Positions 3,422 through 60,084 of a DNA stretch of 64,000 bases are shown in pieces. Numbering within the stretch: position 1 is the stretch's first letter; every line of letters begins with the position of its first letter. The position numbers and the translations under genes are program-made. Below the pieces are notes generated by a model. The model did no database searches, had not been told where the DNA came from, and was given only the letters and a program-made list of their open reading frames with translations. Where the stretch lies: NCBI GenBank assembly GCA_001636495.1, contig KV440964.1:3426666-3490665 (forward strand), read 5' to 3'. The DNA is from Sutcliffiella horikoshii (lineage in GTDB: Bacteria; Bacillota; Bacilli; Bacillales; Bacillaceae_I).

Positions 3422-3553
3422 CCCCTGTAGCTTGGAGTGCAGGATGTGAGACTCCTGCGGGAGGGAAGCGGTAGCTTGAGACCCCGCAACGAAGTGAGGA
3501 GGCTCAAGCAACGCCCCGCGGAAAGCGAACATCCGGAACGGAAAGCTACAGGG
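3422..3553 (+). repeat. Dispersed structured repeat, copy 1
   Basis: The ends pair as TGTAGCTT/AAGCTACA. Inner stems pair as GGATGT/ACATCC and TTGAG/CTCAA around the conserved ACCCCGCAACG and GAGGAGG loops. This copy differs from the others in all three stems yet keeps pairing. It sits between yjcH and yjcG. Confidence 0.85.
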
Positions 3554-3680
3554 AGTAATATAGGATAGTTAAATAGTTATTTAAGAATGATAAACAAACT
3601 TTCCTATTCATTTCAAAAAAATTAAGATAAAATAAACTCATAAGCCACTATATCGCAAAAGCAAACAGGAGGGATATTGG

Positions 3681-4202
3681 ATGAAATATGGAATAGCTAT
3701 TTTTCCAACAAAAAAATTACAAGATCTCGCGAATTCATTTCGAAAACGCTATGATGCACACTATGCATTGATTCCACCGCATGTGACATTAAAAACAGCC
3801 TTTGAAATTGATGAAAATGATATGAAATCTGTGACAGATGAGCTTGCGGCCATCGCCAAAGACACAGCTCCAATCCCTTTGAACATCTATAAAGTGAGCT
3901 CCTTTGCTCCTGTAAACAATGTAATATACCTTAAAGTAGACCCAACAGATGAACTGTTATCCTTACATGAAAAACTTCATTCCGGAATTGGTTACTTCCA
4001 GGATAACCGTGAATTTTCATATGTTCCCCACATTACCATCGGACAGAACCTATCGGATGACGAGCATTCCGATGTGTTGGGTACACTGAAAATGACGAAT
4101 ATAGAGCATGAAGAAATGGTCGACCGCTTCCATCTTCTTTACCAATTGGAAGATGGCATGTGGACCGTGTATGAAACATTCCGCTTCGGAAAGGACTGCT
4201 GA
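3681..4202 (+). CDS. yjcG: YjcG, 2H phosphoesterase family (2'-5' RNA ligase-like)
   Basis: Cytoplasmic 173-residue protein of the 2H superfamily. The two catalytic His-x-Thr motifs are visible as PPHVTLK (about residues 34-40) and VPHITIG (about 115-121), spaced as in the family. Such enzymes act on 2'-5' or cyclic phosphodiester bonds; the physiological substrate of YjcG is unknown. The start follows AGGAGGG. Only 3 bases separate it from yjcF, so the two form an operon ending at the terminator at 4631. Confidence 0.88.
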
Positions 4203-4205
4203 ATC

Positions 4206-4631
4206 TTGCATGTACAAGTAGTGGATACTGAAAAAGAACTACAGGATGCGTATTCCGTTCGCAAGACGGTTTTTGTCGAAGAACAGAACGTTCCGTTAGA
4301 GGAAGAAATAGACCAATACGAAGAAGGTGCCACTCATTTTGTGTTATACGATGAGGAACAGGCAGTTGGGGCAGGACGATTCCGTATCGTAGAAGGGATT
4401 GGAAAAGTGGAACGCATCTGTGTCCTTCCTTCCTACCGTACATCCAAAGGGGCTGGACGCCTTATTATGGATACAATCGAAGAATATGCAAAAACAAAAG
4501 AAATGCATGTGCTGAAATTGAATGCTCAAACACATGCAGAACCATTTTATGCGAAGCTTGGCTATGAAACCGTCTCCGATGTTTTCATGGATGCCGGCAT
4601 CCCGCATGTAACGATGACTAAAAATATTTAA
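4206..4631 (+). CDS. yjcF: YjcF, GNAT-family N-acetyltransferase
   Basis: A 141-residue GNAT protein. The N-terminal YSVRKTVFVEEQNVP and the acetyl-CoA pyrophosphate-binding part RICVLPSYRTSKGAGRLIM (about residues 70-90) are typical of the ElaA/YjcF group. The start is TTG directly after the yjcG stop; no in-frame ATG is near. The acceptor is unknown, a small molecule rather than ribosomal protein by family habit. Confidence 0.85.
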   Translation: MHVQVVDTEKELQDAYSVRKTVFVEEQNVPLEEEIDQYEEGATHFVLYDEEQAVGAGRFRIVEGIGKVERICVLPSYRTSKGAGRLIMDTIEEYAKTKEMHVLKLNAQTHAEPFYAKLGYETVSDVFMDAGIPHVTMTKNI

Positions 4632-4676
4632 AGGATGTCTCTCCTAAGGTAATCTGCGGAGAGACATCCTTTTTTT
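4631..4676 (+). terminator. Terminator after yjcF
   Basis: Perfect 14-bp stem (AAGGATGTCTCTCC with its complement) and a T7 tract, starting at the yjcF stop. Confidence 0.9.
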
Positions 4677-4739
4677 CATAGTTTCCTTTTCCATTACCCA
4701 TACTACTGTTATGGACAAAAAAAAGGATGACGACATATT

Positions 4740-5441
4740 ATGATGGATTACGGTCGCATAGCAGTGGAATTGGCAATCGGGTTTTCCGCCTTATTTATCA
4801 TTACACAGCTACTAGGAAAAACACAGATTACCCAAATTACTCCCTTTGACTTCATTTCAGCCCTTGTATTAGGGGAACTCGTGGGAAATGCCTTGTATGA
4901 TAATGAAATAGGCGTGGTGAAAATCCTTTTTGCTTTAGGATTATGGGGGCTACTCATTTTTTTATTGGAAACCATTACACAAAAATGGCGTAAAACCAGA
5001 GGAATATTAGAAGGACGGCCAAACATTGTCATACATAAAGGGGTCATTAATAAAAAGGAACTAAAAAAATCGAAGCTCGATATTGATCAACTTCGCCACC
5101 TGCTTCGCTCTAAAGGTGCTTTTTCCATACAAGAAGTGGAATATGCCATTCTTGAAACTGACGGAACGGTGAGCGTACTTAAGAAGCATCCATATGCCGC
5201 TCCGACGAATAAGGATATGAATATTCCATTCAGTAAGGTTATCCTTCCCATCCCGATTATTTCTGATGGAGAAATCCTTACTGACAACCTGGATGAATTC
5301 AATATTAATGAACAATGGGTATTAAATGAACTAAAAAAGATAGGCTATCACACTCCCAAGGAAATCGTTTTCGCCGAATGGGAAGAAGGAAAGCCTATCT
5401 ATGTGATGCCTTATTCAAAAGAGGACTCCACCACCAATTGA
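4740..5441 (+). CDS. DUF421 (YetF/YcaP-type) membrane protein
   Basis: A 233-residue protein with three N-terminal membrane segments (about residues 8-80) and a soluble DUF421 domain after it. The family signature is clear: LLGKTQITQITPFDFI near residue 25, then the LDIDQLRHLLRSKGAFSIQEVEYA region (about 118-142) and the ILETDGTVSV strand. DUF421 proteins are common in sporulating Bacillaceae; relatives such as YetF and YdfS have been linked to spore inner-membrane properties. The last 31 bases overlap the end of the convergent MBL gene. A second DUF421 gene (11383) lies in this window. Confidence 0.85.
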   Translation: MMDYGRIAVELAIGFSALFIITQLLGKTQITQITPFDFISALVLGELVGNALYDNEIGVVKILFALGLWGLLIFLLETITQKWRKTRGILEGRPNIVIHKGVINKKELKKSKLDIDQLRHLLRSKGAFSIQEVEYAILETDGTVSVLKKHPYAAPTNKDMNIPFSKVILPIPIISDGEILTDNLDEFNINEQWVLNELKKIGYHTPKEIVFAEWEEGKPIYVMPYSKEDSTTN

Positions 5442-6319
5442 TTGTCACGGATTTGAAAGCTGACTTTTTGTTCCTTCATCAACTTTGTCAAATAGGCGGT
5501 AACGGCGGTTCGAAACAGCATGAAGCTAGTTACATTTCTAATGGTGATGCCTTTTTGGGTGCAAGCCTTTGTAACTAACTGTTCAAAGGGAACACCTGCT
5601 GATTCTCCGGTTATCAAGGTAAAAAGCATAGCTTCGATTTGATGATGCACCTTTATGTTCTCTTCTATCGTCTCGAGGAAGTCCGTTTCATAGCTCCCAT
5701 GTCCAGGAACCGCTCCTTTGCATGGGAGTTTTTTTATTTTTTCCAAGGTTTCTAGTGTTAGATGCGCATCCACAATATATGGGATGCCGTGCTTATGTAT
5801 GATGTCTTTACCGAAATAAGCGTCCGCAGCAAAGAGAATATCATTCGTCATGACACCGAATTGATGGTAGCTGTGCCCCGGTAGCGCGATGGTACGAAAT
5901 TGAATTTCTCCCCGTTCTACAACCCCCTCCCCTTTTAACTCCAAATCGACATGGATCGGTTTGCCTTCGAGAAATTTATTGCGCCACTCCGGTATCGGGT
6001 TGGTGCCGTGAAACAGGTACAAGGGCTCGAGCATCGGCTCTTGAAGGATGGCAGACTCAAATCCAGGCGCTATCGTATAGACCTGCCTGTTTTTCTGCAG
6101 GTAAGCAGCCCCACCATAGTGATCGGCATGCGCATGGGTGATGAACAGATGAGTCAACGGAAGGCCCTTTTCGTCCAGTTTTTTCAAGACCTTCTTCATC
6201 GTCTGATCTTCGAGTCCCGCATCAATGAGCATTCCTGTCTTTTCGGTAAATTGCACGTAACCGATGTTGACAGAGGTCTGAAAATAATAGACGTTATCTG
6301 TTAATTGATGAAGTTCCAC
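5411..6319 (-). CDS. MBL-fold metallo-hydrolase
   Basis: A 302-residue metallo-beta-lactamase-fold enzyme. The zinc ligand motif THAHADH is at residues 61-67, followed by the expected downstream ligands (GHSYHQFG and an FAADAYFG Asp, and a PGHGS motif). The C-terminal 90 residues look helical, as in the glyoxalase II-like/YqgX-type hydrolases. It starts at GTG after AAGGAGTG. Substrate unknown. It is convergent with, and overlaps, the DUF421 gene. Confidence 0.85.
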   Translation of the reverse strand: MELHQLTDNVYYFQTSVNIGYVQFTEKTGMLIDAGLEDQTMKKVLKKLDEKGLPLTHLFITHAHADHYGGAAYLQKNRQVYTIAPGFESAILQEPMLEPLYLFHGTNPIPEWRNKFLEGKPIHVDLELKGEGVVERGEIQFRTIALPGHSYHQFGVMTNDILFAADAYFGKDIIHKHGIPYIVDAHLTLETLEKIKKLPCKGAVPGHGSYETDFLETIEENIKVHHQIEAMLFTLITGESAGVPFEQLVTKACTQKGITIRNVTSFMLFRTAVTAYLTKLMKEQKVSFQIRDNQLVVESSFE

Positions 6320-6349
6320 TATTAAAGCACTCCTTGCATTTATGAACTG

Positions 6350-6613
6350 CTAAATGGATTCGTTAAAGTACCGCCCTTTTCCTGTTAAATCCGCAATTAA
6401 TTTTTCGGAAATACGGGAGGCCTGCTTTTCTTTTTTAAGGTTTAGATTGTTATGCTGGGCATTTCTGTGAATCTCTTGCCAGGAAAGTTGTGGATCCATC
6501 CTGTAGAAGGTCGGCCTGATTACCGGATCCAGCCTGATCTGTTGTTTTTCGGAAACAGTCCGGTTCGCATATTGTGTGTAGGCATCCATTTGCACTGGTA
6601 AAACATATCCCAT
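6350..6613 (-). CDS. Small conserved-looking protein of unknown function
   Basis: 87 residues, hydrophilic, with a central tract of basic and polar residues (NLNLKKEKQASRISEK) and no membrane segment. The ATG at 6613 follows AAAGGGGAG with good spacing; an adjacent GTG one codon earlier is possible. The gene is divergent from yjcD. I do not recognise a family. Real coding is supported by the RBS and clean start rather than by homology. Confidence 0.6.
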   Translation of the reverse strand: MGYVLPVQMDAYTQYANRTVSEKQQIRLDPVIRPTFYRMDPQLSWQEIHRNAQHNNLNLKKEKQASRISEKLIADLTGKGRYFNESI

Positions 6614-6748
6614 CACGTTTCTCCCCTTTCTGAACTACTTATATTTTTCCCTTTATTTGCAAAACACAAACTTCATTCGACTCGTGTTCTCTCTATATAA
6701 TATGTGTTACTATGAATTAGATTGACTGTTATAAAGGAGTCTTTACGT

Positions 6749-9037
6749 ATGAAGTCAGCTTTATGGAATGAACGCGCAATACATATTGGAACCATGGCAA
6801 GAGAGCTGTATCAGGAGGTTTATGACGCTGGAGTGAAAGGCGGACTCTCTTGTAAAATTTGCGGCGAAAAGGTAAAGCTTTACCTTGGCTTGCAAAAAGA
6901 ACCTCATTTTTATCACATAGATGCGGGAATAAATCATGAAGAAGAAAAGGAATTGCCCCAAACAAATAAAAAGGTGACGGAGCAAAAGGAATACGTCGAA
7001 CGGGATGGCTTCCGATATCCAAAATCAAGGACCATTGTAGCGGAGAAAGAAAGCCCGGATGATCAATGGAAGGCACCAAAGCCCCTTGCCCATCTACCTA
7101 TCTTTATTAAAGAACATACGAAAAGCCACAAGAATTTAAGTGGGTTTTTCCATACTTTGCAAGAAAAAAATATATTTCTAGATTCCACGCAACAGGAAGC
7201 TGTTTCAACCGTTGATGGACCTCTACTTGTATTGGCAGGTGCCGGAAGCGGAAAAACTAGGGTGTTAATAACGCGAGTGGCCTATATGGTTCAGGAGCAG
7301 CAGATTAATCCTAAAACCATCATGCTGATCACCTTTACTGCCAAGGCAGCCAATGAGATGAAGGAAAGGCTCCGTTTATATGAAACACCAGGTTCCCGCA
7401 GGTTTGCGAACCTCCTTTCCGGCACGTTTCATAGCATTTTCTACCGAATGTTACAGCATCATAACCCCGCCCGCTGGAATGGGGACAACCTATTGAAATG
7501 GGATTGGCAGAAGGAGCAATTTCTTAAAACTGCCGGACGTAAACTTGGTCTCGATGAAAAGGATTTTCCTTTTGACCAGGCTATTCAGCAAATTGGCTAT
7601 TGGAAAAACAACATGCAAACTCCCAAAATGATCAAATCGGAAACGAAGCTAGAAGAACAATTTCAATCATTGTATCAGGACTACGAGGACTGGAAGAAAG
7701 AAAAGAATGTCTTTGATTTTGATGACATGCTGCTCGGCTGTTATGAACTGCTTTTGGAAAATCCTGCTCTGTTGGCTAAATACCAAGAGCGTTTCCGTTA
7801 TTTCCTAATAGATGAGTTTCAGGACATCAATAAAGTTCAATATGAAACCATGAAACTATTAGCTAAAAGCGGGAATATCTGTGCCGTCGGCGATGATGAC
7901 CAGTCCATCTACGCATTCCGCGGCAGCAGCCCCGACTATATCTTGAATTTTCACCGTGATTTTCCGTTGACGAAAGTTGTGACACTTTCTGAAAATTATC
8001 GTTCTACCCATGCCGTTGTAGCCGCTGCAAATCAGGTGATTGAAAAGAACAAAAGCCGTCGTGTGAAGAGTATGAATGCCCAGCGTGATAACAAACAGTT
8101 GCCAATTCTTTTCTATCCATATGATGAGGAAGAAGAAGCCACCATCATTGTGCAGGATATGAAAGAACAGATTGAAAAAGGCGCCATTCCCGCTGACCTT
8201 GCTGTCCTATACCGTACCCATAGTGCTGCACGGGCTATTTTCGAAAGGCTGTCACAATCAGGTCTTCCGTTCAAGCTGGACCAGGATTATGAGAGCTTTT
8301 ATAAAAGAAGAATTGTTAAAGGGATATTGGGTTTCTTACGTCTGAGCAAGGATTCAAATGACGTTCAAGCTTTGTCGGACGTACTTCCCGCACTTTTTCT
8401 GAAACAATCCAACCTTCAAGATGCAAAAGCGATTAGTATATTGGAAGATTGCAGTTTAGTAAAGTCATTGAGTCATCTGACAAATGTCCAGCCTTTTCAG
8501 GTGAAAAAAATCAAGCGAATTATTCCTCTGTTCCAAACACTTGCCAACGTCTCTCCTTCTGTTGCGCTGGAGATGATTGAAAAGGACATGGGCTTTGATG
8601 ACTATATTAAAAAGCGGGGAAATGAAGGAAATGCGCTGGAAAAGGGCTCCGATGACATCAGAGATCTGAAGGTGGTTGCCCGAAAATTCAAGACCACCAC
8701 GGAATTTCTTGACCATGTGGAAGATATGATTGCCAAAACGGAGGAAATGAAAAAGCTGAGCAAACAATACAGCAATGCCATCCATCTTTCGACCATCCAC
8801 CGTTCCAAGGGATTGGAATATACAAACGTTTATGTCCTGAGTACCGTCGACGGCAGTCTGCCCCACGACTTTGCCCTGGAATCTTTTCGAAACGGAGAAC
8901 CCCTGGCCCTTGAGGAAGAACGCCGCCTCCTGTATGTGGCCATGACACGGGCCAAAGAAACGTTGCATCTCTCCGTCCCAATGAATCGCCGTGGCAAGAA
9001 GGCTTACGTGAGCCGATTTCTTAAAGATATTCTATAG
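6749..9037 (+). CDS. yjcD: YjcD, UvrD/PcrA-like superfamily I DNA helicase with N-terminal Zn-ribbon-like part
   Basis: A 762-residue 3'-5' SF1 helicase. Walker A AGAGSGKT lies at about 163-170, motif Ia ITFTAKAANEMKERL follows, Walker B is FLIDEFQDIN, motif III GDDDQSIYAFRGS, and motif VI YVAMTRAKETLHL is near the C terminus. The N-terminal 60 residues carry CKIC (35-38) and HFYH (53-56), a spacing like the zinc-binding N terminus of CoiA. The ATG at 6749 is 8 bases after AAAGGAG; a TTG 27 bases upstream lacks an RBS. It probably acts in DNA repair or recombination; its specific role is not established. Confidence 0.9.
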   Translation: MKSALWNERAIHIGTMARELYQEVYDAGVKGGLSCKICGEKVKLYLGLQKEPHFYHIDAGINHEEEKELPQTNKKVTEQKEYVERDGFRYPKSRTIVAEKESPDDQWKAPKPLAHLPIFIKEHTKSHKNLSGFFHTLQEKNIFLDSTQQEAVSTVDGPLLVLAGAGSGKTRVLITRVAYMVQEQQINPKTIMLITFTAKAANEMKERLRLYETPGSRRFANLLSGTFHSIFYRMLQHHNPARWNGDNLLKWDWQKEQFLKTAGRKLGLDEKDFPFDQAIQQIGYWKNNMQTPKMIKSETKLEEQFQSLYQDYEDWKKEKNVFDFDDMLLGCYELLLENPALLAKYQERFRYFLIDEFQDINKVQYETMKLLAKSGNICAVGDDDQSIYAFRGSSPDYILNFHRDFPLTKVVTLSENYRSTHAVVAAANQVIEKNKSRRVKSMNAQRDNKQLPILFYPYDEEEEATIIVQDMKEQIEKGAIPADLAVLYRTHSAARAIFERLSQSGLPFKLDQDYESFYKRRIVKGILGFLRLSKDSNDVQALSDVLPALFLKQSNLQDAKAISILEDCSLVKSLSHLTNVQPFQVKKIKRIIPLFQTLANVSPSVALEMIEKDMGFDDYIKKRGNEGNALEKGSDDIRDLKVVARKFKTTTEFLDHVEDMIAKTEEMKKLSKQYSNAIHLSTIHRSKGLEYTNVYVLSTVDGSLPHDFALESFRNGEPLALEEERRLLYVAMTRAKETLHLSVPMNRRGKKAYVSRFLKDIL

Positions 9038-9086
9038 GAAAGAACGCAATCCCTCCTTTGTTTCAGGGATTGCGTTCTTTCTTTTT
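9038..9086 (+). terminator. Terminator after yjcD
   Basis: 17-bp perfect stem beginning at the base after the stop codon (GAAAGAACGCAATCCCT and complement), 10-base loop, T tract. Confidence 0.92.
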
Positions 9087-9198
9087 GTCAACCTTATTTG
9101 AAGTAAAAAACTTTATTTTTTGAATAGTACAAAAGTACGTTTAGTCTACTCCTATCTGGGTATGTACCTCTTATATGAGTAGAAAGGGGGACATGTAT

Positions 9199-9399: not shown

Positions 9400-9431
9400 A
9401 TATAGATAATAAATGGAAAAGAGGTTATGAA

Positions 9432-9902: not shown

Positions 9903-9959
9903 GATCTTGTACAACAGTTAAACTATTAAAAAAAAGATTTGCTTTTTCTATACAATATC

Positions 9960-10090
9960 CCCCTGATGGCTGAAGTGCAGGGTGTGAGACTCCTGCGGGA
10001 GGAAGGGACAAGGGAGACCCCGCAGGCTTGCCGAGGAGGCTCCCGGACCGCCCGCGGAAAGCGAACACCTGGAACGGAAGCCAGAAGGGC
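9960..10090 (+). repeat. Dispersed structured repeat, copy 2
   Basis: Ends pair as CCCT..GGCT/AGCC..AGGG. Inner stems are GGTGT/ACACC and GGGAG/CTCCC. It lies between two convergent genes. Confidence 0.85.
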
Positions 10091-10108
10091 GTTTTACAGC
10101 TTATATCT

Positions 10109-10160
10109 AAAAAAAAACATCTGCCCTATCCACATAAACGTGGTAGGCAGATGTTTTTTT
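10109..10160 (-). terminator. Bidirectional terminator of spoVIF
   Basis: AAAAACATCTGCC and its complement enclose a smaller inner hairpin; A and T tracts flank both sides, so it can also stop the convergent gene at 9432. Confidence 0.85.
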
Positions 10161-10419: not shown

Positions 10420-10510
10420 CAAACATCCTCCTCTCGGATATATCACATTGTATGTGAGAGAGCCTATCGGTGTGACTTCATGAAAAAAGATGATGTAGTG
10501 TGTAAACAGA

Positions 10511-18536: not shown

Positions 18537-18827
18537 ATGAGTTTTTATTATGAGCAAAAAGGATGTTGTGGGCGTAAGAAGGAAGATCACAAGAAGGAAG
18601 ATCACAAGAAGGAAGAGAAACATGAGTTGGACTGTTTCTGTGGCAAATATCTAAAAAACTTCTTAGGTGACGATGTTGAACTAACTGTAGTAGGCCAAAC
18701 AGCAACAATTGACGGAACTATTGCTTGTATTGATGAAAAGTCAGGTGTAGTTACTGTCGCTGGACTTGAAGGATTAACTTATGTATGCTGCAAATTTATT
18801 ATTGCAGTAACACCTGCAACAGCATAA
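18537..18827 (+). CDS. CFCG/CCK-family small Cys-rich protein 1
   Basis: A 96-residue protein with an N-terminal GCCGRK, a charged tandem repeat (KKEDH three times, with variation), then a 60-residue domain: CFCGKYLKNFLGDDVEL, an IACIDEKSGVVTV core and YVCCKFI. The same domain recurs at 18888 and 40032. ATG follows AGGGAGG. Six Cys in total suggest disulfide cross-links. Family unknown to me; the position suggests a spore coat or crust protein. Confidence 0.75.
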   Translation: MSFYYEQKGCCGRKKEDHKKEDHKKEEKHELDCFCGKYLKNFLGDDVELTVVGQTATIDGTIACIDEKSGVVTVAGLEGLTYVCCKFIIAVTPATA

Positions 18828-18887
18828 ATGAGAAAAAATTAAATGTTTGCAATTCCTTTTAGCAACCTATGAAAGGTGGTTTATATA

Positions 18888-19109
18888 ATGAGTGATCATA
18901 AACAAGATTGCTTCTGTGGGAAATTCTTAAAAAGATTTCTTGGTGATGAGGTTAACTTGCTCTTAGTTAACGGAGATGAATTATTTGAAGTTACCATCGC
19001 TTGTATTGATGAAAAATCAGGTGTTGTAACAATTACTGATGGCGGAGACATATCTTATATTTGTTGTAAATCTATTGTTGCAGTGTTACCTGCAGCAGCA
19101 TCAGTGTAA
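18888..19109 (+). CDS. CFCG/CCK-family small Cys-rich protein 2
   Basis: A 73-residue tandem paralog of the gene at 18537. It is just the domain: CFCGKFLKRFLGDEV, IACIDEKSGVVTI, YICCKSIVAV. The identical IACIDEKSGVVT stretch shows recent duplication. ATG 18888 follows AAAGGTGG; upstream GTG lacks spacing. It ends at a terminator. Confidence 0.75.
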   Translation: MSDHKQDCFCGKFLKRFLGDEVNLLLVNGDELFEVTIACIDEKSGVVTITDGGDISYICCKSIVAVLPAAASV

Positions 19110-30428: not shown

Positions 30429-30451
30429 CTGGTGATTCCCTCCTTTTGCTA

Positions 30452-30460
30452 TAGAATATG
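30452..30460 (-). promoter_or_regulatory. SigK -10 candidate of the amidase gene
   Basis: CATATTCTA, 24 bases before the start; no AC at 16-17 bases upstream, so it is a weak match, but the surrounding 60 bases are repeated at 39804. Confidence 0.35.
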
Positions 30461-30607
30461 CTAGATTCGGGAGGGGGATTGGGTGATTGAGGAGTTCGCT
30501 GTCTTTTTTTATTAGGATAATCAGAAGAATCGAACCAGAGGCAACTCTATCAACTTAAGTTTGAATTCAACTCCGCGGGGCTAGAGCCAGTCCAATTTTA
30601 TTTCAGA

Positions 30608-39803: not shown

Positions 39804-39879
39804 TAATTTCATATGTTGATTCCCCTTTTGCTATATAACATGCTAGATTCTGGAGGGTGATTAGGGTAAATGAGAAGTT
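39804..39879 (-). repeat. Relic copy of the amidase gene leader and first codons
   Basis: Matches 30422-30500 base by base over much of about 70 bases (AATTTCAT, GATTCCCCTTTTGCTATA, ATGCTAGATTC, GGAGGG), including the start codon region, then diverges. Reading on gives only about a dozen codons before a stop. Confidence 0.7.
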
Positions 39880-41230: not shown

Positions 41231-41250
41231 TTAGTACCTAGTCATAATTA
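41231..41250 (-). promoter_or_regulatory. FapR operator and promoter of fabI
   Basis: TTAGTACCTAGTCATAATTA matches the FapR box (TTAGTACCTnnnnnTAATT-like). A TATAAT (minus strand, about 41250-41257) immediately upstream serves as -10. FapR represses lipid genes until malonyl-CoA binds it. Confidence 0.75.
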
Positions 41251-41316
41251 TAGCATATAGTTGTCGAAAAGCGAACTTATTATTTTTTGGTTTAGCACCT
41301 GGTTCTGCAAATCACC

Positions 41317-41444
41317 GCTGTTGATTTCCATAAATGGCTTCGCTTTCCGCGGGGCGACCTTGAGCCTCCTCGCTACGCTGAGCGGTCTCAAGATAGTCGC
41401 TACTCCCCCGCTGGAGTCTACGCAATTTGCTTCAATCCACAGCT
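41317..41444 (-). repeat. Dispersed structured repeat, copy 3 (inverted)
   Basis: Starts CTGTTGATTTCC and ends at CAATCCACAG, with the GCTTCGCTTTCCGCGGGGCG and AGCCTCCTCG blocks. Faces copy 4, 87 bases away. Confidence 0.85.
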
Positions 41445-41531
41445 AGAAATTACTAGAACGAAACATTAAATACTTTTTCAGTTAAATTGGGTAGATAGGT
41501 TTAAGTTATCCTTTCGGTGAAAGTAATTACC

Positions 41532-41657
41532 TTGTTGATTGTAGTGGAAGGCGCGCAGACTCCTGCGGGAGGAAGGGACTGGAAAGACCCCGCAACGCAG
41601 TGAGGAGGCTTTCGGACCGCCCGCGGAAAGCGAAGCGCCTGGAACGGAAATCAACAG
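41532..41657 (+). repeat. Dispersed structured repeat, copy 4
   Basis: TTGATT/AATCAA ends, GGCGC/GCGCC and GAAAG/CTTTC stems. The 40 bases before it (TTTAAGTTATCCTTTCGG) recur before copy 9. Confidence 0.88.
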
Positions 41658-41676
41658 AATTATATACTTTCTCCTA

Positions 41677-41713
41677 TAAAAAAGAAGACCGGCTCTGTTA
41701 TGAACCGGGCTTC
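41677..41713 (-). terminator. Terminator of the antiporter gene
   Basis: GGAAGCCCGG/CCGGTCTTC arms and T6 read on the minus strand. Confidence 0.75.
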
Positions 41714-47667: not shown

Positions 47668-47783
47668 AATAATCTCCTTCCAACCTAAATCCTACTCATA
47701 TATTATCATAATTCCCATGTTTCAACGAAATGGAAACCTCACTTTTTCCCAATTTCGTAATTTTACTTATTTTCACTCCCACT

Positions 47784-47914
47784 CCCTGTTTCCTTTCGTT
47801 CCAGGTGTTCGCTTTCCTCGGGGCGGTGCTTGAGCCTCCTCACTTCGTTGCGGGGTCTCAACCTACCGCTACCCTCCCGAAGGAGTCTCACACCTTGCAC
47901 TTCAGTCAACAGGG
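47784..47914 (-). repeat. Dispersed structured repeat, copy 5 (inverted)
   Basis: CCCTGTTTCCTTT...CAACAGGGG ends; inner stems GGTGT/ACACC and TTGAG/CTCAA in the reverse strand. Between divergent yjbL and yjbK; the rest of this 375-base gap shows no gene. Confidence 0.82.
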
Positions 47915-48042
47915 GAAATCTGCATTTAAGAAATAATAAATTATCTCGGTTTCCACAATTCCTAGAAGAATGCACTTTATCGTTGCCTTCATTGGAAAAC
48001 AAAGTAATAATAGAAGTATAACAAAACAGGAGAGGTAAAATT

Positions 48043-49328: not shown

Positions 49329-49341
49329 ATATGATAATCCC

Positions 49342-49377: not shown

Positions 49378-49429
49378 ATGTTCCTTGCAAAAACTAGTGG
49401 AAGACGCGAATATAGCTTTAATGGTCTCT

Positions 49430-49557
49430 AGCTGGTGATTGGAGCAAAAGGCGTAGACTCCAGCGGGGGAGTAGCGACAATCTTGAGACCCCACAGTGAA
49501 ACGAGGAGGCTCAAGGTCGCCCCGCGGAAAGCGAAGCCATTTGCGGAAATCAACAGC
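49430..49557 (+). repeat. Dispersed structured repeat, copy 6
   Basis: GCTG..GATT/AATCAACAGC ends, GCAAA..GGC/GCC..TTTGC and CTTGAG/CTCAAG stems. Fills the cwlQ-yjbI gap. Confidence 0.85.
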
Positions 49558-49698
49558 GGTGTTTAACCAATCACCTCCCACACAAATCCCTTTTTTCCCT
49601 GTTTTTTGCAAGGGTGGAATCGAATTGTTTGAGATATAATAACCACATTGCTAAAATATACATACAATCGTTACTTTGAAATTGATAAGGAGTTAAAA

Positions 49699-51070: not shown

Positions 51071-51134
51071 CTGTTGATTGTAGTGGAAGGCGCGCATACG
51101 CCTGCAGGCAAGCGAAGCGCCTGAAACAAAATTT
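51071..51134 (+). repeat. Dispersed structured repeat, internally deleted copy 7
   Basis: Left end CTGTTGATTGTAGTGGAAGG and right end GCGAAGCGCCTGAAAC joined, central 65 bases missing. Confidence 0.75.
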
Positions 51135-51159
51135 AATGAAAGTCCAAGAGTTTCTCAAA

Positions 51160-51278
51160 ATACGAAAAGCCCCGGTCAACGGGACCAGGGCTTTTCATCT
51201 TGTCATTAAAGACAACAAAGGGGATGGGAGAAATTTTTCACGGTCAAACAAAGGGGTATATGTTTGTTTGTGAATCGT
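51160..51278 (-). ncRNA. roxS: RoxS (RsaE) regulatory sRNA
   Basis: Read on the minus strand this holds two C-rich seed regions, CCCCTTTGTTTGACC and CCATCCCCTTTGTTGTC, as in RoxS/RsaE, and ends at its own terminator (51163-51197). RoxS pairs with ribosome-binding sites of redox and TCA-cycle mRNAs. Location beside spxH matches B. subtilis. The 5' end is estimated from the promoter, within about 10 bases. Confidence 0.88.
51163..51197 (-). terminator. RoxS terminator
   Basis: GAAAAGCCC..GGTC/GACC..GGGCTTTTC stem; overlaps the 3' end of the RNA. Confidence 0.9.
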
Positions 51279-51320
51279 TTCACAGTTATAAATATATCAG
51301 ATATTGTCGACTTTTGACAA
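51268..51320 (-). promoter_or_regulatory. roxS promoter with Rex operator
   Basis: TTGTCA (51320-51315) and TATATT (about 51296-51291) form the promoter. TTGTGAATCGTTTCACAG (51268-51285) matches the Rex operator (TTGTGAAnnnnTTCACAA) and covers the transcription start; Rex is known to repress roxS in B. subtilis. Confidence 0.8.
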
Positions 51321-53524: not shown

Positions 53525-53616
53525 TATTAAACCCCCTTTGAAAATAAAAAGTGCATCCTTATAACTATTCGACGTGACTTTATTATTCCCTTTTTTCTTT
53601 TAATAATCGCTTATTC

Positions 53617-54798
53617 TTATTGTTTCGTTCTTAAGAAGGTTTCCAATACAAAGCGGTCCCGCCTCAATGCTTCATCCAGTGATGGAAGGCGTCCGCTGTC
53701 ATGCAGCTTCCGGTAAATGGTCGGTGTTTCCCTTCTTAATACACCGATGGCAACTAGCGCATCCAAGTATTCGACAATAGCATTTTCATAAGAGCCTACC
53801 TTTATTAAGGGTAAATCTCTTTTTACAATATCGGAACTTTTCAATCGGAATCGGAAGTTCTTTAATACAGAAGGGAGAAGAATCATGGATGAAGCGGGCG
53901 CATGGTAAATGGAGTCAAAATAGAGCCATGCCTGCCATTCAATGATGGATGTGTGAATGTGATAAAAGGACGGAACAGGAAGACCGATCTCAGGGGGAAA
54001 TAGGGATAAGGGGAAATGCATCTTTCCATAGCAGTAACTCCTTAGCTTTTGATAAGGTTTGTAGAATGAATATTCATATCTCCATTTCTTTTTATAATGA
54101 AGATAATGATCTTTCCATAAAGTAGATTGTTCTTTTTTAAAAACTGGTTGCTCTATCCAGTTTTTACTGGTCTTCATGGTGATATAGGTGGTGGAGCTAT
54201 TAAGGGAAAAAGTAGGTTGAATATAGGAAAATATCGAACGATGTGGACAGAAGCTTGTGATGTAGGGTGAGCTATGTGGAGCAGGTCTTTGTAGAAATCG
54301 CCATTGAAACGGCGAGAGCTTAAGTGGGGAAACCGTCCTGTCTTGTGGTCCAAGCTTTTCGCGGCCGATGATCCAGATGGGGCGGATGCCTTCCTTTTCG
54401 TAGAGCTTTGTTCGACGATTGAAATCTGCTGCTGACAGGCTCGAGCATTGAAATTCAAATGCATACCTTCCATAGTCCGTTTCCATATATATATCTGCTC
54501 GTTGATTAGTAGTGGGAATGTAATGTTCAAGAATGGGTTGATTGTTTTGGAGGAGAGTTTCATATAATTTGACTTTTCCTTCAAGATGGTAGGGACTTTC
54601 GGATTCAGTCGATGCTTTGCAGGAGTTGTTTGTGTGGGCGAAGTGAATTCTGCGTACCTGACCTTGCTTAATTTGAAGCCTGCTATCACATGCGGGACAA
54701 TAAAACGATTCACCTTTCGTAAGGCGCTCAATATCCTCCCTCTTTTTCCAATCCAGCAGGGAGAAGAAAGAACCATTTTTCATTTTGGCAACAAACAT
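53617..54798 (-). CDS. coiA: Competence protein CoiA (YjbF)
   Basis: A 393-residue protein. N-terminal zinc part CPACDSRL...RIHFAH (about 34-56), then a nuclease-like core NQRADIYM...YAFEFQCSSLSAADFNRR (about 99-129), as in CoiA. In competence CoiA limits cutting of transforming DNA and promotes RecA action. The C-terminal 240 residues are family-variable. Located next to mecA in B. subtilis. Confidence 0.88.
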   Translation of the reverse strand: MFVAKMKNGSFFSLLDWKKREDIERLTKGESFYCPACDSRLQIKQGQVRRIHFAHTNNSCKASTESESPYHLEGKVKLYETLLQNNQPILEHYIPTTNQRADIYMETDYGRYAFEFQCSSLSAADFNRRTKLYEKEGIRPIWIIGREKLGPQDRTVSPLKLSPFQWRFLQRPAPHSSPYITSFCPHRSIFSYIQPTFSLNSSTTYITMKTSKNWIEQPVFKKEQSTLWKDHYLHYKKKWRYEYSFYKPYQKLRSYCYGKMHFPLSLFPPEIGLPVPSFYHIHTSIIEWQAWLYFDSIYHAPASSMILLPSVLKNFRFRLKSSDIVKRDLPLIKVGSYENAIVEYLDALVAIGVLRRETPTIYRKLHDSGRLPSLDEALRRDRFVLETFLRTKQ

Positions 54799-54972
54799 TG
54801 AAACACACCTTTCCTATTCATATTTTCTTACCACTGTTAATTTTCGTCACCATCAGACAAATTCCTGCTAAAAACGCAAAAAAAATAATTTAAAATAGAC
54901 TCAGGAAAAAAACGGGCAAAACGCTCCCGGTTCTTTTGAAATCTCTATGGCCAGGATGTCTTTTCTAACCAG

Positions 54973-55128
54973 GATGAGGACCTCTCCACTTCGATTTTCA
55001 CGACAGAGAGGTCTTCATAACTCAGATGAGGACCTCTCCACTTCGATTTTCACGCCAAAGAAGTCTTCATAACTCAGATGAGGACCTCTTCACTTCGATT
55101 TCCACGCCAAAGAGGTCTTCATAATTAT
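54973..55128. repeat. Three 52-bp tandem repeats with internal palindrome
   Basis: Units start at 54973, 55025 and 55077. Each has GACCTCT..AGAGGTC (one mismatch in unit 2), so each can form a hairpin of 7 pairs. No gene in 54799-55497; the remainder contains repeat copies 8 and 9. Confidence 0.85.
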
Positions 55129-55206
55129 GATGATGAAATTGCTACTCGCCCGATGGACAAGACAGGCTGCGAAAGCGATACATCGCTCACAGATAATACC
55201 ATTTTT

Positions 55207-55246
55207 AAGGAGTCTACTCCATTTGCTCCAATCCACTGCTAGATAC
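55207..55246 (-). repeat. Dispersed structured repeat, remnant copy 8
   Basis: AAGGAGTCTACTCCATTTGC and CAATCCACTGCTAG resemble the right end of copy 3; the rest is lost or degraded. Confidence 0.55.
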
Positions 55247-55299
55247 CAGTCACCGCTGTTAGATAGTTTTAAGTTATCCTCTCGGCGAATGGTATTTCC

Positions 55300-55427
55300 C
55301 TGTTGATTGGAGTGGAAGGCGCGCAGACGCCCGCGGGAGGAAGGGACAGGTGAGACCCCGCACCGGAGGGAGGAGGCTCACGGACCGCCCGCAGGCAAGC
55401 GAAGCGCCTGGAACGGAAATCAACTGT
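55300..55427 (+). repeat. Dispersed structured repeat, copy 9
   Basis: CTGTTGATT/AATCAACTG ends, GGCGC/GCGCC and GTGAG/CTCAC stems. Upstream 40 bases resemble those of copy 4. Confidence 0.88.
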
Positions 55428-55447
55428 TCTTAAAATACACCCCTCGC

Positions 55448-55481
55448 AAAAAAAATGCCGGAAACCCGGCATTTTCATTTT
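55448..55481. terminator. Terminator of cls
   Basis: AAAATGCCGG/CCGGCATTTT around GTTT, with A8 and T4 flanks. Confidence 0.85.
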
Positions 55482-55497
55482 GCATATATCTTAACTC

Positions 55498-57009
55498 TTA
55501 TAATAGCGGCGAAGCCAATCTAGACAAGGACTCAAACACCTTCTGATAAAACGGACGGTTCGCAAAGACCTCTTTCGCAATCGGTTTGGCATCATGCAGA
55601 TCTTGCTCGTAATCCCCCACCAAGGTTTCTACACTCTCTGTATTGTATAAGAACGCGTTGACCTCAAAATTAAGGTGGAAGCTCCTCATGTCCATATTTG
55701 CTGTCCCGATCGAAGCGACCTGGTCATCCACGATTACTACCTTGCTGTGCAAAAATCCCTTTTCATATTGAAAGATTTTCACACCAGCATCCATCATTTC
55801 TGGAAAGTAAGATCTAGAAGCATAGTAGACTATTCGCTTGTCCGGCCTTTTGGGTACCAGCAGACGTACATCCAATCCACTTAAAGCTGCCACCTTGAGA
55901 GCGGTAAAAATATCATCATCCGGTACAAAATAAGGCGAAGCAATCCAGATGGATTTCCTTGAAGAGGTAATCATGGCAAAGTATAAGCTTTTAATGACTT
56001 CCCATTCCTGGTCCGGCCCTCCAGCAATCATCTGTACCCCACCATACCTTTTCTCACAGGCTGGAGTTGGGGTCAGATAGGTTGGGGTCAGGAGGGATTC
56101 GTCTGTCGCATAATACCAATCTTGCAAAAAGATAAGCTGAAGGGTTCTGACCGCTTCCCCTCTCACGTAGAGGTGCGTGTCCCTCCAAAAACCGAAGTAA
56201 TCATCTCGTCCAAGATATTCGTCTCCAATATTGAGGCCACCAACAAATCCCACTTCCCCATCTACCACAATTATTTTGCGGTGATTACGGAAGTTAACTT
56301 TATTGTTGAATACGGGAACTCTTACAGGAGAAAAGGAGACAATTTCCACTCCTGCTGCACGAAGATCTTTTATGAATTTACTCCCTAACTGGAAACTGCC
56401 CACAGCGTCGAATAGGAACCTTACTTGAACCCCTGCTTTGGCTTTCTCGATTAATAGATCCTTAATCTGCGTACCAATCTCATCATCTCTTACTATGTAA
56501 TATTCAAAATGGATATGATGCTTCGCTTTACTGATCTCCTCTAGAATTCTGGTGAAAGTCTGATTTCCATTAGTCAGAACCACCGTTTCTGTTTCAAAGG
56601 AGATGGGACTTCTTCCGATATTTTGGGACAATTGAAAAATGCCTTTTTTGCTCTCATCAAGAAGACGCATATCTTCCTCAGAGTACTCCCTGATCCCTTC
56701 CACCTCTTCTAACACTTCTTTATCAAGTAAAGCTTTTCTTTGAAAAAGTCTGCGCTTTCTTACATTCCTTCCAAAAATTAAGTAAAAGAAGAATCCAAGT
56801 ACTGGAAAACTGCCAAGTACAACAAGCCAAGTCAATGTTCTCGTAGGGTGCCGATTTTCTAGTGAAATTAGGAATGCGATAAAAACGACGGAGATGGTGA
56901 AAAATACGGAAATGGATCCTAGCAGCCACCCTTCCCAAAGACCTTGAGTGGCAAATAGCAGAGCCCCGATGACTAAAATAAATACGATAACCCGAATGGT
57001 GTTTTTCAA
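55498..57009 (-). CDS. cls: Cardiolipin synthase
   Basis: A 503-residue phospholipase-D-type enzyme. Two HxKxxxxD motifs: NHRKIIVVDGEVGFVGG (about 237-253) and HSKVVIVDDQVASIGTANMD (about 415-434). Two membrane segments at the N terminus. Start TTG 57009 after GAGGAGATG; spacing is long. Not in this place in B. subtilis as I recall. Makes cardiolipin from phosphatidylglycerol. Confidence 0.93.
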   Translation of the reverse strand: MKNTIRVIVFILVIGALLFATQGLWEGWLLGSISVFFTISVVFIAFLISLENRHPTRTLTWLVVLGSFPVLGFFFYLIFGRNVRKRRLFQRKALLDKEVLEEVEGIREYSEEDMRLLDESKKGIFQLSQNIGRSPISFETETVVLTNGNQTFTRILEEISKAKHHIHFEYYIVRDDEIGTQIKDLLIEKAKAGVQVRFLFDAVGSFQLGSKFIKDLRAAGVEIVSFSPVRVPVFNNKVNFRNHRKIIVVDGEVGFVGGLNIGDEYLGRDDYFGFWRDTHLYVRGEAVRTLQLIFLQDWYYATDESLLTPTYLTPTPACEKRYGGVQMIAGGPDQEWEVIKSLYFAMITSSRKSIWIASPYFVPDDDIFTALKVAALSGLDVRLLVPKRPDKRIVYYASRSYFPEMMDAGVKIFQYEKGFLHSKVVIVDDQVASIGTANMDMRSFHLNFEVNAFLYNTESVETLVGDYEQDLHDAKPIAKEVFANRPFYQKVFESLSRLASPLL

Positions 57010-57056
57010 AAGAATCTCATCTCCTCATCCAAAAGCGAAAGCTCTCTGTTTACTCC

Positions 57057-57184
57057 GCTGTTGATTTCCGCACCGGGCTTCGCTTTCCTCGTGGCGCTTG
57101 TGGAGCCTCCTCGGCTTGGCCTGCGGGGTCTCCCCTAACCGCTACCTCCCAAAGGAGTCTGCGTCCTATGCTACAATCAACAGC
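57057..57184 (-). repeat. Dispersed structured repeat, copy 10 (inverted)
   Basis: GCTGTTGATT/AATCAACAGC ends, GCTTCGCTTTCCTCG and AGCCTCCTCGG blocks. Between cls and mecA. Confidence 0.85.
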
Positions 57185-57231
57185 TAGAAATCATTTTTTC
57201 ATATAGCTAATTATAATAACCATGAATTTGA

Positions 57232-57267
57232 AAAAAACCGATTTCAACTTCGTGAAATCGGTCTTTC
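57232..57267 (-). terminator. Terminator of mecA
   Basis: AAACCGATTTC/GAAATCGGT stem with a TT-rich tail, minus strand. Confidence 0.8.
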
Positions 57268-57268
57268 G

Positions 57269-57961
57269 TTATTTTAGAGGAAAATGTTTGGTCATTTCCT
57301 TCATTGCATCTTCCTTGGCAACTTCCGATCCATACTCTTGGAGACGGTGAATGGAGATGGCAGATTCTTCCCCAAATTCGAGTAACACACTCAACACATT
57401 ATCGATTTCTTCATCGGTATAGTGTTCACTTGAGAAATCAACATAGAGATAGTAGTTCTTCTCATAGAAGTACAAGTGGTTGCTCAGATTCTCCAAGTGC
57501 TGTAAACGATGACTGGCTGAAATGATATACTCCAAATCTTTGAAACGCATCATGAACTGCAGAAGATCTTTTTCTTCTTCTAGCTTGTCGTCTTTGGACT
57601 CATCCGTTTTTGCCGAGGAATTGAAATGCTGATCCAGTAGAGCCTCTATTCTTTCATCAACTGGAATGTCAATTCGCTTATCATCTGAAACCGGAACTTC
57701 AAAGTTTTTTCCATCCTTTGATAGTTGTGCACGAGTCACGATAACTTCCAACCCTTTATCGAGTGCCTGAACCTGAATCCATAGTGGACCTTCCACCATG
57801 AAATCCTCCTCATCGTGGGCTTCATCCATCATTTCCCAGAAGAGTTCTTCACTACGCTCACGGTTATACCAGATTTCTTCACGGTCAAATCCGCGTTCTT
57901 CTATATCACCATATGAAATGTAAAACTTTACTGTATGATCATTTATACGTTCAATTTCCAT
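57269..57961 (-). CDS. mecA: MecA, ClpC adaptor protein
   Basis: A 230-residue adaptor. N-terminal substrate-binding part (MEIERINDHTVKFYISYGDIEERGF) and C-terminal ClpC-binding part (FKDLEYIISASHRLQH...LYFYEKNYYLYVDF). Delivers ComK and others to ClpC/ClpP; also controls Spx-related and sporulation pathways. ATG 57961 after AAGGGAG; upstream TTG at 57970 less likely. Confidence 0.94.
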   Translation of the reverse strand: MEIERINDHTVKFYISYGDIEERGFDREEIWYNRERSEELFWEMMDEAHDEEDFMVEGPLWIQVQALDKGLEVIVTRAQLSKDGKNFEVPVSDDKRIDIPVDERIEALLDQHFNSSAKTDESKDDKLEEEKDLLQFMMRFKDLEYIISASHRLQHLENLSNHLYFYEKNYYLYVDFSSEHYTDEEIDNVLSVLLEFGEESAISIHRLQEYGSEVAKEDAMKEMTKHFPLK

Positions 57962-58581
57962 TCTTAACAACTCCCTTCTGATTCGGTAAATGATTAGCGT
58001 GCTCTTTTTCGAACAAACCTCATAGTTGAATATTTTTCATGAGATATGTCAGTCTCTTATTGTCCGCTCCTCATTTTCCTCCGTCTTTCCTTGGAAGGGA
58101 CCCTCCACAATTTTCTAATACCTTATTGTTACAATTTATCCATTTAGCATAGCGAGTAAACCTTAAATCTATGCAAAAAGAAAAGCATATGCGGTTGGTT
58201 CCGGTCCATTAGGCAAAAAACATAGATAGTTATGCATCCCGGTTAGAGACGAATTTGTGACCTCAAGTACCCAGCCTCCAAAGCTGTACCATGACCGCAA
58301 CATAGATTAAGCACATTGTACTATAAAGATTTATACTTGTACTGTTATTTTATGATAAAAAAAGGGAGAATGGAAACAAAAATGCTCACAAATTTAAAAA
58401 TCGTTAAAATGCCTAACCTGTAAAAACAAGATGCCACTCTTCGTGACACTTAGATCGGCAATATACCTGCATCCTATACGCTTGAGATGTCATTCTTTGC
58501 CTCCTTGTAGGATAAAACAGTCATATTCTCCCCCCTACACCACTATATTTATATAGGACTGGGACAAGAAGGGGCGATATA
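57962..58581. other. Gap between mecA and yjbE
   Basis: No gene with RBS is evident. A structured stretch lies around 58185-58305: TGCGGT near its left end pairs with ACCGCA near its right end, enclosing GTAC-pairs and a CCAGCC/AGCT hairpin. It does not match the yybP-ykoY, M-box, c-di-AMP or SAM consensus I know. The left part holds the divergent start regions of mecA. Confidence 0.4.
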
Positions 58582-59244
58582 GTGGAGCTAGAACTGATTA
58601 CTTCCATTCTCATCATAATAGGCATTGATATTGTACTTGGCGGAGATAATGCCATTGTCATAGCACTAGCATGCAGAAACCTCCCAGAACGGTACCGGAA
58701 CAAAGCAATTGTCATCGGGACACTACTGGCTATAATCTGCAGAATCATCCTTACTGTTGGTGCAGTCTATCTCTTAGCTATTCCATTTCTCCAGTTCGTC
58801 GGAGGAGTTTTATTGATATATATTGCTGTGCAGCTGATTATGGACCATGGTGAAGAGACGATTGTAAAAGGCAGTAGTTCTCTTGCTGTCGCCATTAAGA
58901 CCATAGTAGTTGCCGATATTGTTATGGGAATAGATAATGTCATGGCCGTGGCCGGTGCTGCTCATGGTAATTTTTATTTGGTGATCATTGGCTTGGTATT
59001 TTCCATTCCAATTATTATATGGGGGAGTAAGATTATATTAGTGGCAATGGAGAAATATCCTATAATTATTCATTTAGGAGCAAGCATTTTGTGCTATACG
59101 GCCGGTAAGATGATTATTAATGAGCCACGGGTCGCTGTCATGCTTCCAACTGGCGATTGGCAGACATTTTTTCCTTTTGTGCTTATAGTAGGTGTGTTGG
59201 TTTTTACTGGGTTGCAAAAGAGACAGCTTTTTAGAACTCGGTAA
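58582..59244 (+). CDS. yjbE: TerC-family integral membrane protein, YjbE
   Basis: A 220-residue protein with seven membrane segments. TerC motifs: GGDNAIVIALA (near residue 20) and DIVMGIDNVMAVAGAAHGN (near 112), with acidic residues that may bind metal. Likely a Mn or other divalent exporter in the family sense. GTG start follows AAGGGGCG. Convergent with spx at a bidirectional terminator. Confidence 0.9.
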   Translation: MELELITSILIIIGIDIVLGGDNAIVIALACRNLPERYRNKAIVIGTLLAIICRIILTVGAVYLLAIPFLQFVGGVLLIYIAVQLIMDHGEETIVKGSSSLAVAIKTIVVADIVMGIDNVMAVAGAAHGNFYLVIIGLVFSIPIIIWGSKIILVAMEKYPIIIHLGASILCYTAGKMIINEPRVAVMLPTGDWQTFFPFVLIVGVLVFTGLQKRQLFRTR

Positions 59245-59290
59245 AAGAGTTGCTAGTTTATCGCTTATTGATTCACTTGAAATTTGGGAT

Positions 59291-59328
59291 AAAAAAACTT
59301 CTACATGGCGTGCATGTAGAAGTTTTTT
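59291..59328. terminator. Bidirectional terminator between yjbE and spx
   Basis: AAAAAACTTCTACAT and ATGTAGAAGTTTTTT arms. Confidence 0.92.
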
Positions 59329-59334
59329 GTTATA

Positions 59335-59733
59335 TTAGCTATTAACTAAGCGCTGTGCTTCTCTTAATTGGAACGTTCTTACTTTTCTTGGTAAGAAGCG
59401 GCGGATTTCATCTTCGTTGTACCCTACTTGCAGTCGTTTTTCGTCTATGATGATAGGTCTTCTTAAAAGGCCAGGGTGTTCTTTTATAACAGAATATAAT
59501 TCTTGTAGTGGCATTGCTTCCACATTTATATTCAGTTTTTGGAAGATTTTAGATCTGGTGGAGATGATCTCATCTGTTCCGTCTTCCGTCATTCGTAGAA
59601 TCTCTTTAATCTCATCGATGGATAAGGATTCTGAGAAAATATTTCTTTCTGTATATGGAATGTTATGTTCTTCTAACCAATTTTTTGCTTTACGACAAGA
59701 GGTACAACTTGGAGACGTATATAGTGTTACCAT
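59335..59733 (-). CDS. spx: Spx, redox-stress transcription regulator
   Basis: A 132-residue ArsC-like regulator that binds the RNA polymerase alpha subunit. The CTSC redox switch is at residues 10-13 and [25 protein letters not shown] is the interaction region. ATG follows AGAGGAAAG. Controlled post-translationally by SpxH (50105) and MecA-linked proteolysis pathways, both in this window. Confidence 0.95.
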
Positions 59734-59950
59734 GAACTTTCCTCTCCTTTTTTTATCTAGTATTATTCGAAAAGAACATGCGGAACGTTTCTAATTGTGA
59801 ATCGCTCTCAATTTGAAATTACTCTAAAGAAGTAATCTCTATTGTTTATTATACACGATTTCCGACTGAAAAGGTATAGTATTTTAAAAGTCGGACAAGT
59901 TGTCACAACATGTTCAAATTTTTTCGAATTGCATTAACTCTCCATTAACT

Positions 59951-60084
59951 CCCTGTAGATTTCCGTTCCAGGTGTTCGCTTTCCTAGGGGCGGTGCTTGA
60001 GCCTCCTCGGCTGCGCCTGTGGGGTCTCAAGCTACCGCTATCTCCCTCAGGAGTCTCACACCTTGCACTTCAATCTTCAGGGGG
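59951..60084 (-). repeat. Dispersed structured repeat, copy 11 (inverted)
   Basis: Ends pair AGATT/AATCT in CCCTG..CAGGG context; inner stems GGTGT/ACACC and TTGAG/CTCAA. Between divergent spx and the RND adaptor; rest of 59734-60301 shows no gene. Confidence 0.85.

Follow-up and report, generated by a model that had tools for sequence, protein, structure and literature searches.

What keeps the two arms of a repeated hairpin complementary whilst their letters change is the question raised by a 64,000-nt stretch of Sutcliffiella horikoshii DNA, positions 3426666-3490665 of contig 1 in a 4.26-Mb genome, the whole of which is referred to here as the window. Its intergenic DNA holds nine full copies and two remnants of one element, the full copies being 136-141 nt each with ends as chosen in this analysis, and a first-pass annotation of the same sequence had listed these eleven, all of which are present within a few bases of the positions it gave. 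The fold of the element, its covariation, its sharp ends, the polymorphism of its sites, its head-to-head pairs, its tandem arrays and its spread through the order are established. The reading favoured here, which is tentative and is given a probability of about 0.45, is that the copies form a family of non-autonomous mobile repeats working like the repetitive extragenic palindromes and bacterial interspersed mosaic elements (REP/BIME), selected as a folded strand that is probably single-stranded DNA (ssDNA).

Fold of the element

Each copy folds as a single long hairpin, imperfectly paired and interrupted by internal loops that are conserved, the folding z-scores of the nine copies ranging from -1.1 to -6.8. 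From the foot the fold starts with an outer helix of 10 bp, followed by two 3x3 internal loops with 2 pairs between them and by a 5-bp helix; it then continues through a conserved asymmetric loop (around AGA opposite AAGCGAA) into a CTCC-GCGGG / CCCGCGG helix and on to an apical helix, GAG-A-CCCC / GG-A-GG-CTC, with bulged A's; copies of the A type have an extra GCGGT / ACCGC helix below the apical one. The annotation had described three separate stems, with GAGACCCCGCA and GAGGAGG as loops. Instead the helices stack into a single hairpin, with internal loops between them, and the two supposed loop sequences are paired opposite each other in the conserved apical helix.

The conserved core is GACTCC...GGAAAGCGAA and the conserved apical helix is GAGACCCC...GAGGAGGCTC, with cap variants that include ACGAAGT, GGCGAAGCC, GGCGTAGCC, GGCTTGCC and others. 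The outer helix is variable and is interrupted in most types by GNA/GNA internal loops, which in the copies of the own genome are found at the outer internal loop in 42/42 cases and at the inner in 35/42. When copies from Halobacillus and Ornithinibacillus are folded the sequence of the outer helix is unrelated yet paired, with the same core. At the apex, the 244 copies with an exact core have C(GNA)G loops in 148 cases, with all four bases at N, the remainder including TT/CTTG (16), GNYA (11) and GNRA (9). The consensus flanking the foot is TTcCCCC in the A type and TTTCTAGC in the C type, neither of which contains GTAG or CGTC.

Covariation of the arms

It is apparent that the stem arms do change together, as the annotation had proposed. 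RNAalifold on the nine window copies gives 31 pairs, 12 of them with change on both sides. In a MAFFT alignment of 42 own-genome copies, made without structure, 92.0% of cells are paired compared with 85.2% after shuffling, there are 101 double-change cells (23.5 shuffled, 10-19 when slid by 1-3 columns), and double changes occur at 22 pairs compared with 11.1 shuffled. For 132 copies from many genera, in an alignment fitted to the model, the double-change cells number 755, with 211 for shuffled and 111-155 for slid alignments. A self-written, tree-aware test similar to R-scape (FastTree tree, Fitch substitution counts, 60 null alignments, E < 0.05) finds 8 significant column pairs in these 132 copies and all 8 lie inside the 42-pair structure, that is within the shared fold, the alignment being one fitted to that structure; copies may also recombine, an event outside the tree model.

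Compensatory change can also be followed by descent, in orthologous copies at two sites of the window. These are the A-type copy at 3418-3556 on the plus strand, with 4 relatives compared and the site occupied in 4/4, and the A-type copy at 59947-60087 on the minus strand, with 5 relatives compared and the site occupied in 5/5. One stem is found as TAGCTT/AAGCTA, TAGTTT/AAGCTA, TAGTTT/AAACTA and TAGATT/AATCTA, the orthologue series for the same stem at these sites including C-G, U.G and U-A. Selection on folding, which the annotation had suggested to act on RNA or on ssDNA during transposition, is thus supported, with either form a candidate, and neither outcome that the annotation had named as refuting it (no significant pairs, or no shared fold) was seen.

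Mobility and arrangement of copies

Five pairs of copies are 95-97% identical within unrelated flanks, with homology stopping near the hairpin foot; the L011/L023 alignment is poor at its ends and was excluded from boundary calls. Exact junctions could not be taken from sites that are empty in another species, as the flanks there are too diverged to place them. For the A and B types, outside tandem arrays and miniature inverted-repeat transposable elements (MITEs), no target duplication at a fixed offset was found with exact 7-mers, a search which old duplications could escape.

Sites in the window vary between relatives, in a comparison that covered the full copies other than those at 41312, 41526 and 55293. 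The C-type copy at 57053-57190 (minus strand), which has a PLD-domain gene on one side and a MecA-family gene on the other, has an empty site in 5/5 relatives. The A-type copy at 47781-47919 (minus strand) has an empty site in genomes G022, G001 and G006 and an interrupted or decayed one in G023 and G012, whilst the site orthologous to the copy at 9956-10091 (plus strand) is empty in 1 of 3 comparable relatives (G012). The site of the C-type copy at 49425-49562 (plus strand), some 45 nt past a terminator-like hairpin judged by eye, is also polymorphic.

Amongst inverted neighbours up to 400 bp apart 18 are head-to-head and 1 is opposite, with nesting of IS1182 type accounting for the single opposite case and for one of the 18. 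Of the head-to-head pairs displayed, 8/17 resemble, by eye, one B-C composite in which the spacers are alike and mostly 77-79 nt long. The window holds this composite twice, intact at 41312-41662 and decayed at 55209-55430. The left half of the intact pair is a full C-type copy on the minus strand (41312-41449) and the right half a full B-type copy on the plus strand (41526-41662), with the spacer between them (41450-41525) resembling the spacers of this pair at other loci. A remnant at 55209-55248 on the minus strand, the left end of a C-type copy, and a full B-type copy at 55293-55430 on the plus strand look like the decayed counterpart of this pair.

Tandem arrays of A-type copies have a period near 164 bp and a spacer of 27-34 nt, with outer stems that differ between units, and are found at L090 1744-2869 (7 copies), L091 1482-2439 (6) and L092 1546-2005 (3). 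One such array is just upstream of a gene that reads from its sequence as a putative acpP. A sequence of about 50 nt that recurs, containing TCTTCGTGCGATGAATCGCTGCCGAAGC or a close variant of it, adjoins GACTCC in several copies and resembles an exchangeable 5' module; it is found at L191 4580-5023, L212 and L263 (the same locus), L138 2438-2561, L206 6847-6926 and, in G023, at the site of the window copy at 47781. A bias of insertion by replication strand was also considered and none was seen among the 150 own-genome copies listed, on an assumed position of the origin, with 50 plus and 40 minus before 2.1 Mb and 38 plus and 22 minus after it.

Spread through the order and the RAYT genes

A covariance model, R1, built from the 42 own-genome copies finds at least 150 copies in the own genome, and as the 150 matches listed leave out the window copies at 41312 and 57053 the true number is higher. 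Twelve genomes of the same genus have from 57 to at least 150 R1 matches each. The statement in the annotation that elements of this kind are common in Bacillaceae is supported, with R1 matching 110/150 genomes and 62/83 genera of the order in a search with stricter filters, where up to 21 candidates were scored per genome. A strongly covarying repeat is present in 62 of the 83 genera sampled in one order, with no Rfam match. The matches listed for a DNA pattern include Halobacillus, Ornithinibacillus, Oceanobacillus, Virgibacillus, Neobacillus, Mesobacillus, Rossellomorea, Priestia, Peribacillus and others. Plasmids with matches comprise 7 records, named as Peribacillus, Priestia, Bacillus or Niallia, and no match was found in phages with one copy as the query.

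Transposases of the Y1 type (PF01797) are found in 121/150 genomes, copies being present in 94/121 genomes with Y1 and 16/29 without (p 0.02). Relatives of the own REP-associated tyrosine transposase (RAYT), which itself scores 77.2 bits where the cut-off of the NCBI REP-associated tyrosine transposase model is 80, are found in 92/150 genomes, with copies in 74/92 of these and in 36/58 of those without (p 0.02). High copy number (at least 19 matches) is seen in 47/92 RAYT-positive and 11/58 RAYT-negative genomes (p 7e-5), these Y1 and RAYT statistics being uncorrected for phylogeny. As high copy number is associated with RAYT, yet genomes that lack it can be rich in copies, RAYT may help movement and is not needed for it. 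RAYT as the sole mobiliser was rejected on those RAYT-less, copy-rich genomes and on the finding of copies near only 1/30 Y1 genes. The element-rich genomes lacking RAYT point to another mobiliser.

Folded DNA or folded RNA

In the mechanism proposed some 130-140 nt of one strand would fold into the long hairpin, and the folded strand may be exposed as ssDNA during replication, or as the non-template strand in transcription. A trans-acting enzyme would recognise the folded ssDNA and copy or move the element without target duplication, with selection on this recognition preserving the pairs whilst letting the letters drift. Copies would settle near gene ends, with the mostly sense orientation of transcribed copies suggesting a second filter at the level of RNA. 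The dominance of GNA apical loops and the rarity of GNRA were counted in favour of DNA folding. The RNA counterparts of GNA and GNNA mini-hairpins are far less stable. In DNA, mini-hairpins with a G-C stem and a GNA or GNNA loop are extraordinarily stable, as described by Hirao and colleagues (the available part of PMC4686876). We lean towards DNA for the conserved fold and an RNA-level filter for orientation, and loop type, strand asymmetry and orientation may perhaps allow DNA and RNA folding to be told apart here. A more specific form, in which the three GNA motifs and the core are the ssDNA ligand of the enzyme, spread proceeds on a single strand independently of RAYT, and sense copies pass an RNA-level filter, is unlikely as a whole.

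It is possible, although on balance doubtful, that the element is instead a structured RNA domain, which would serve for binding or processing within a 3' untranslated region or a leader and would have been spread by recombination or on a carrier. What speaks for this is largely gene context, with genes called by simple open reading frame (ORF) length and stricter calling used as a control. By context the 287 copies divide into 154 between codirectional genes, 52 between convergent and 22 between divergent genes, 40 at locus edges and 19 spanned by an ORF, so no predicted ORF spans 268/287 (40 of the 268 being those at locus edges). The small number between divergent genes compared with convergent ones speaks for RNA too. 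The sense bias described below is stronger where no terminator-like site lies upstream, with sense to antisense 79:13 compared with 38:24 where there is one (Fisher p 0.0009), and is similar on genes taken as leading (24:7) and lagging (11:3), a split on an assumed origin near coordinate 0 for which the local GC skew gave no confirmation. With codirectional copies mostly sense, and more so without an upstream terminator, RNA-level effects exist. The U.G intermediate in the compensatory changes followed by descent is also in keeping with RNA, and GNA/GNA 3x3 loops are stable in RNA too. Against an RNA domain are the lack of an Rfam match, the apical loops that are mainly GNA triloops with GNRA rare, the terminator-like site that precedes 62/154 codirectional copies, and the variation of several sites between species; moreover, selection against antisense copies can give a bias of orientation without any function of the RNA. 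By inference, the element may explain many of the GC-rich intergenic hairpins and spurious short ORFs in Bacillaceae genomes.

A number of observations weigh against a mobile repeat selected as folded ssDNA. Orientation follows transcription, which points to RNA, with 117/154 copies between codirectional genes being sense (p 7e-11), or 102-108 sense and 33-43 antisense with the stricter gene calling (p 1e-6 to 2e-10). The internal loops are less general across genera, where in the fitted alignment (n=132) GNA/GGA is found in 84 and 41 copies, and the inner loop is paired as AAA/TTT in 33/132. Strand asymmetry does speak for the mobile repeat, GU exceeding AC mismatches by 67:34 at the 32 best pairs (85% Watson-Crick or more) in a way that suits one folded strand, whether DNA or RNA, but this excess is absent from the unfitted own-genome alignment, with 21 GU and 26 AC over all pairs, and is weak at its better pairs (15:8). 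The sites at 3418 and 59947 are kept in all relatives compared, with the element aligning better than its flanks by eye, and this conservation could stem from host function or gene conversion. Nor was a mobiliser found beside the copies, with a copy within 1.5 kb at 1/30 Y1 loci, a few of these loci being cut by contig ends. There are 16 copy-bearing genomes with no Y1 match at E 1e-5, 11 genomes with at least 19 matches lack the own-type RAYT, and a hairpin other than the element lies ahead of the own RAYT (GGGTCAGACCCC ... GGGGTCTGACCC; L234 1260-1375, near 823.6 kb, by eye).

Quite improbable is that the copies are neutral palindromes, the arms of which are kept complementary by template switching (quasipalindrome correction) or gene conversion. 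Compensation may indeed also stem from template switching between the arms, and direct exchanges of T-A and A-T with few intermediates (23, 14 and 5 others at columns 12 and 140), the swapping of apical loop types between orthologous copies, and the tandem arrays are all consistent with it. The constant GNA/GNA internal loop makes inter-arm template switching less probable, the outer loop being GNA/GNA in all 42 own copies with covarying helices next to it; the inner loop is fully paired in just 5/42 own copies, though in 33/132 across genera, and the core is recognisable across genera despite the unrelated sequence of the outer helix.

IS1182-type units

Some C-type copies are enclosed in units that measure some 212-222 bp (274 in one case), have the ends GAGGCCACTGAAAAAC and, in the cleaner cases, show 8-9 bp duplications. 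The autonomous partner is a 1,687-bp insertion sequence (IS) with the same ends and an IS1182 transposase, at L248 674-2360 (G005:C66). The IS1182-family IS and its MITEs insert in loops, both of terminator-like hairpins and of elements, with duplications of 8-9 bp, some of which equal the loop. Of 12 own-genome places with the end sequence, 7 have part of another element adjoining the unit, 4 of them on both sides, these flanked units having landed in the apical loop of another element. By a strict loop criterion 7/16 clean sites lie in loops compared with 111/1500 random ones, with 6 element-loop sites and 3 others failing it, and for clean sites outside elements 7/10 are in loops of strong hairpins. 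A weak criterion was set aside, as it gave little separation (18/24 compared with 150/300 random). The landing of these units in loops is a hint, not proof, that the apical loop of the element is accessible as folded DNA in cells.

In Priestia koreensis a 634-bp unit (L113 63-696) has such ends, a perfect 8-bp duplication within a terminator-like hairpin, and one copy of the element, and lacks any ORF that reaches 75 aa. Paired ends within 70 nt are found for 25/274 copies (0 in ten trials with shuffled motifs), a number that includes stretches fetched for carrying the ends, and 249/274 have none. IS1182-type ends lie within 600 nt of 14/224 copies, compared with 0-10 for ten shuffled motifs, a distance at which the ends therefore tell little. 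The exact end pattern is present in 6/9 genomes searched, all of the own genus, and in 0/3 others, including G015 with its 115 model matches.

That the element is an ordinary MITE family moved by an IS1182-type DDE transposase is quite improbable, for whilst C-type copies do occur in GAGGCCACTGAAAAAC-ended units with duplications, share these ends with a complete IS, and have a counterpart in the 634-bp Priestia koreensis unit, no window copy is amongst those with paired ends within 70 nt and nor are 249 of the 274 checked, the A and B types are without a fixed-offset duplication, and none of the 3 other genomes, even the copy-rich G015, has the exact end pattern.

Other features of the window

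The copy at 59947-60087 is upstream of, and sense to, an ArsC-family gene which we read as Spx-like, and is a candidate for a co-opted leader of that gene. A B-type copy with its middle deleted (51071-51137, plus strand) sits some 27 nt past the 3' end of a small RNA gene, RsaE/RoxS, at 51164-51283 on the minus strand (Rfam RF01820, 92.8 bits). Further repeats are present in the window, namely a 52-bp unit in three tandem copies at 54966-55136, with no evident likeness to the element, a direct repeat of about 122 bp at 18709-19106, its two copies 72% alike with 276 bp between, and a 42-bp sequence at 30442-30483 and 39824-39865, 88% identical and 9.4 kb apart.

Comparison with known systems

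No Rfam family matches the element, and at gathering score the only match in the whole window is RsaE, elsewhere. A permissive search of 41250-41700 gave four sub-threshold matches of 15.4-16.4 bits. Nor did the element turn up in the available parts of the literature searched, which included PMC2267715, PMC1590033, PMC3733652, PMC12306157 and PMC2817692.

The IS1182-family MITE carries C-type copies and inserts in apical loops, but explains only 25/274 copies checked. The bcr1 repeat of the Bacillus cereus group is alike in being about 150 nt, intergenic and a stem-loop with mobile features (PMC2267715, PMC3733652, in the parts available), whilst by the title of its paper it is confined to the B. 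cereus group, and it is set apart here by description and not by sequence. Compared with bcr1 and other MITEs the element shows no inverted ends outside its hairpin, and a fixed duplication was not found for its A and B types.

The likeness to REP/BIME is closer. In the available text of PMC3733652 a REP is a palindrome of 20-40 nt, and REP/RAYT hairpins have GTAG or CGTC at the foot; the enterobacterial REPs in Table 1 of Nunvar et al. 2010 have the same GNA-type loops (PMC2817692, likewise in part). The element shares with them an intergenic position, high copy number, an imperfect hairpin whose mismatches are conserved, apical loops of the GNA and CTTG types and head-to-head pairs, a fixed duplication is not found, and a Y1/RAYT gene is present in one or two copies in 12/13 own-genus genomes. 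It differs in its length of 130-140 nt compared with 20-40, in feet without GTAG or CGTC in the consensus and in not lying beside the RAYT gene (1/30 Y1 loci), and further in being rich also where the own-type RAYT is not found, with a core conserved across genera. With three defining features of REP/BIME absent, the element is not filed as one.

Two stem-loop families of B. halodurans are described in PMC2267715, the available part of which does not use the term 'covaria'. The second of these, Bhal-2, is said there to contain CRISPR repeats. The first, Bhal-1, is 74 nt long with 36 intergenic copies, a length close to that of the conserved core of the element, and, on a comparison by description only with the part of that source available, Bhal-1 may be the same core.

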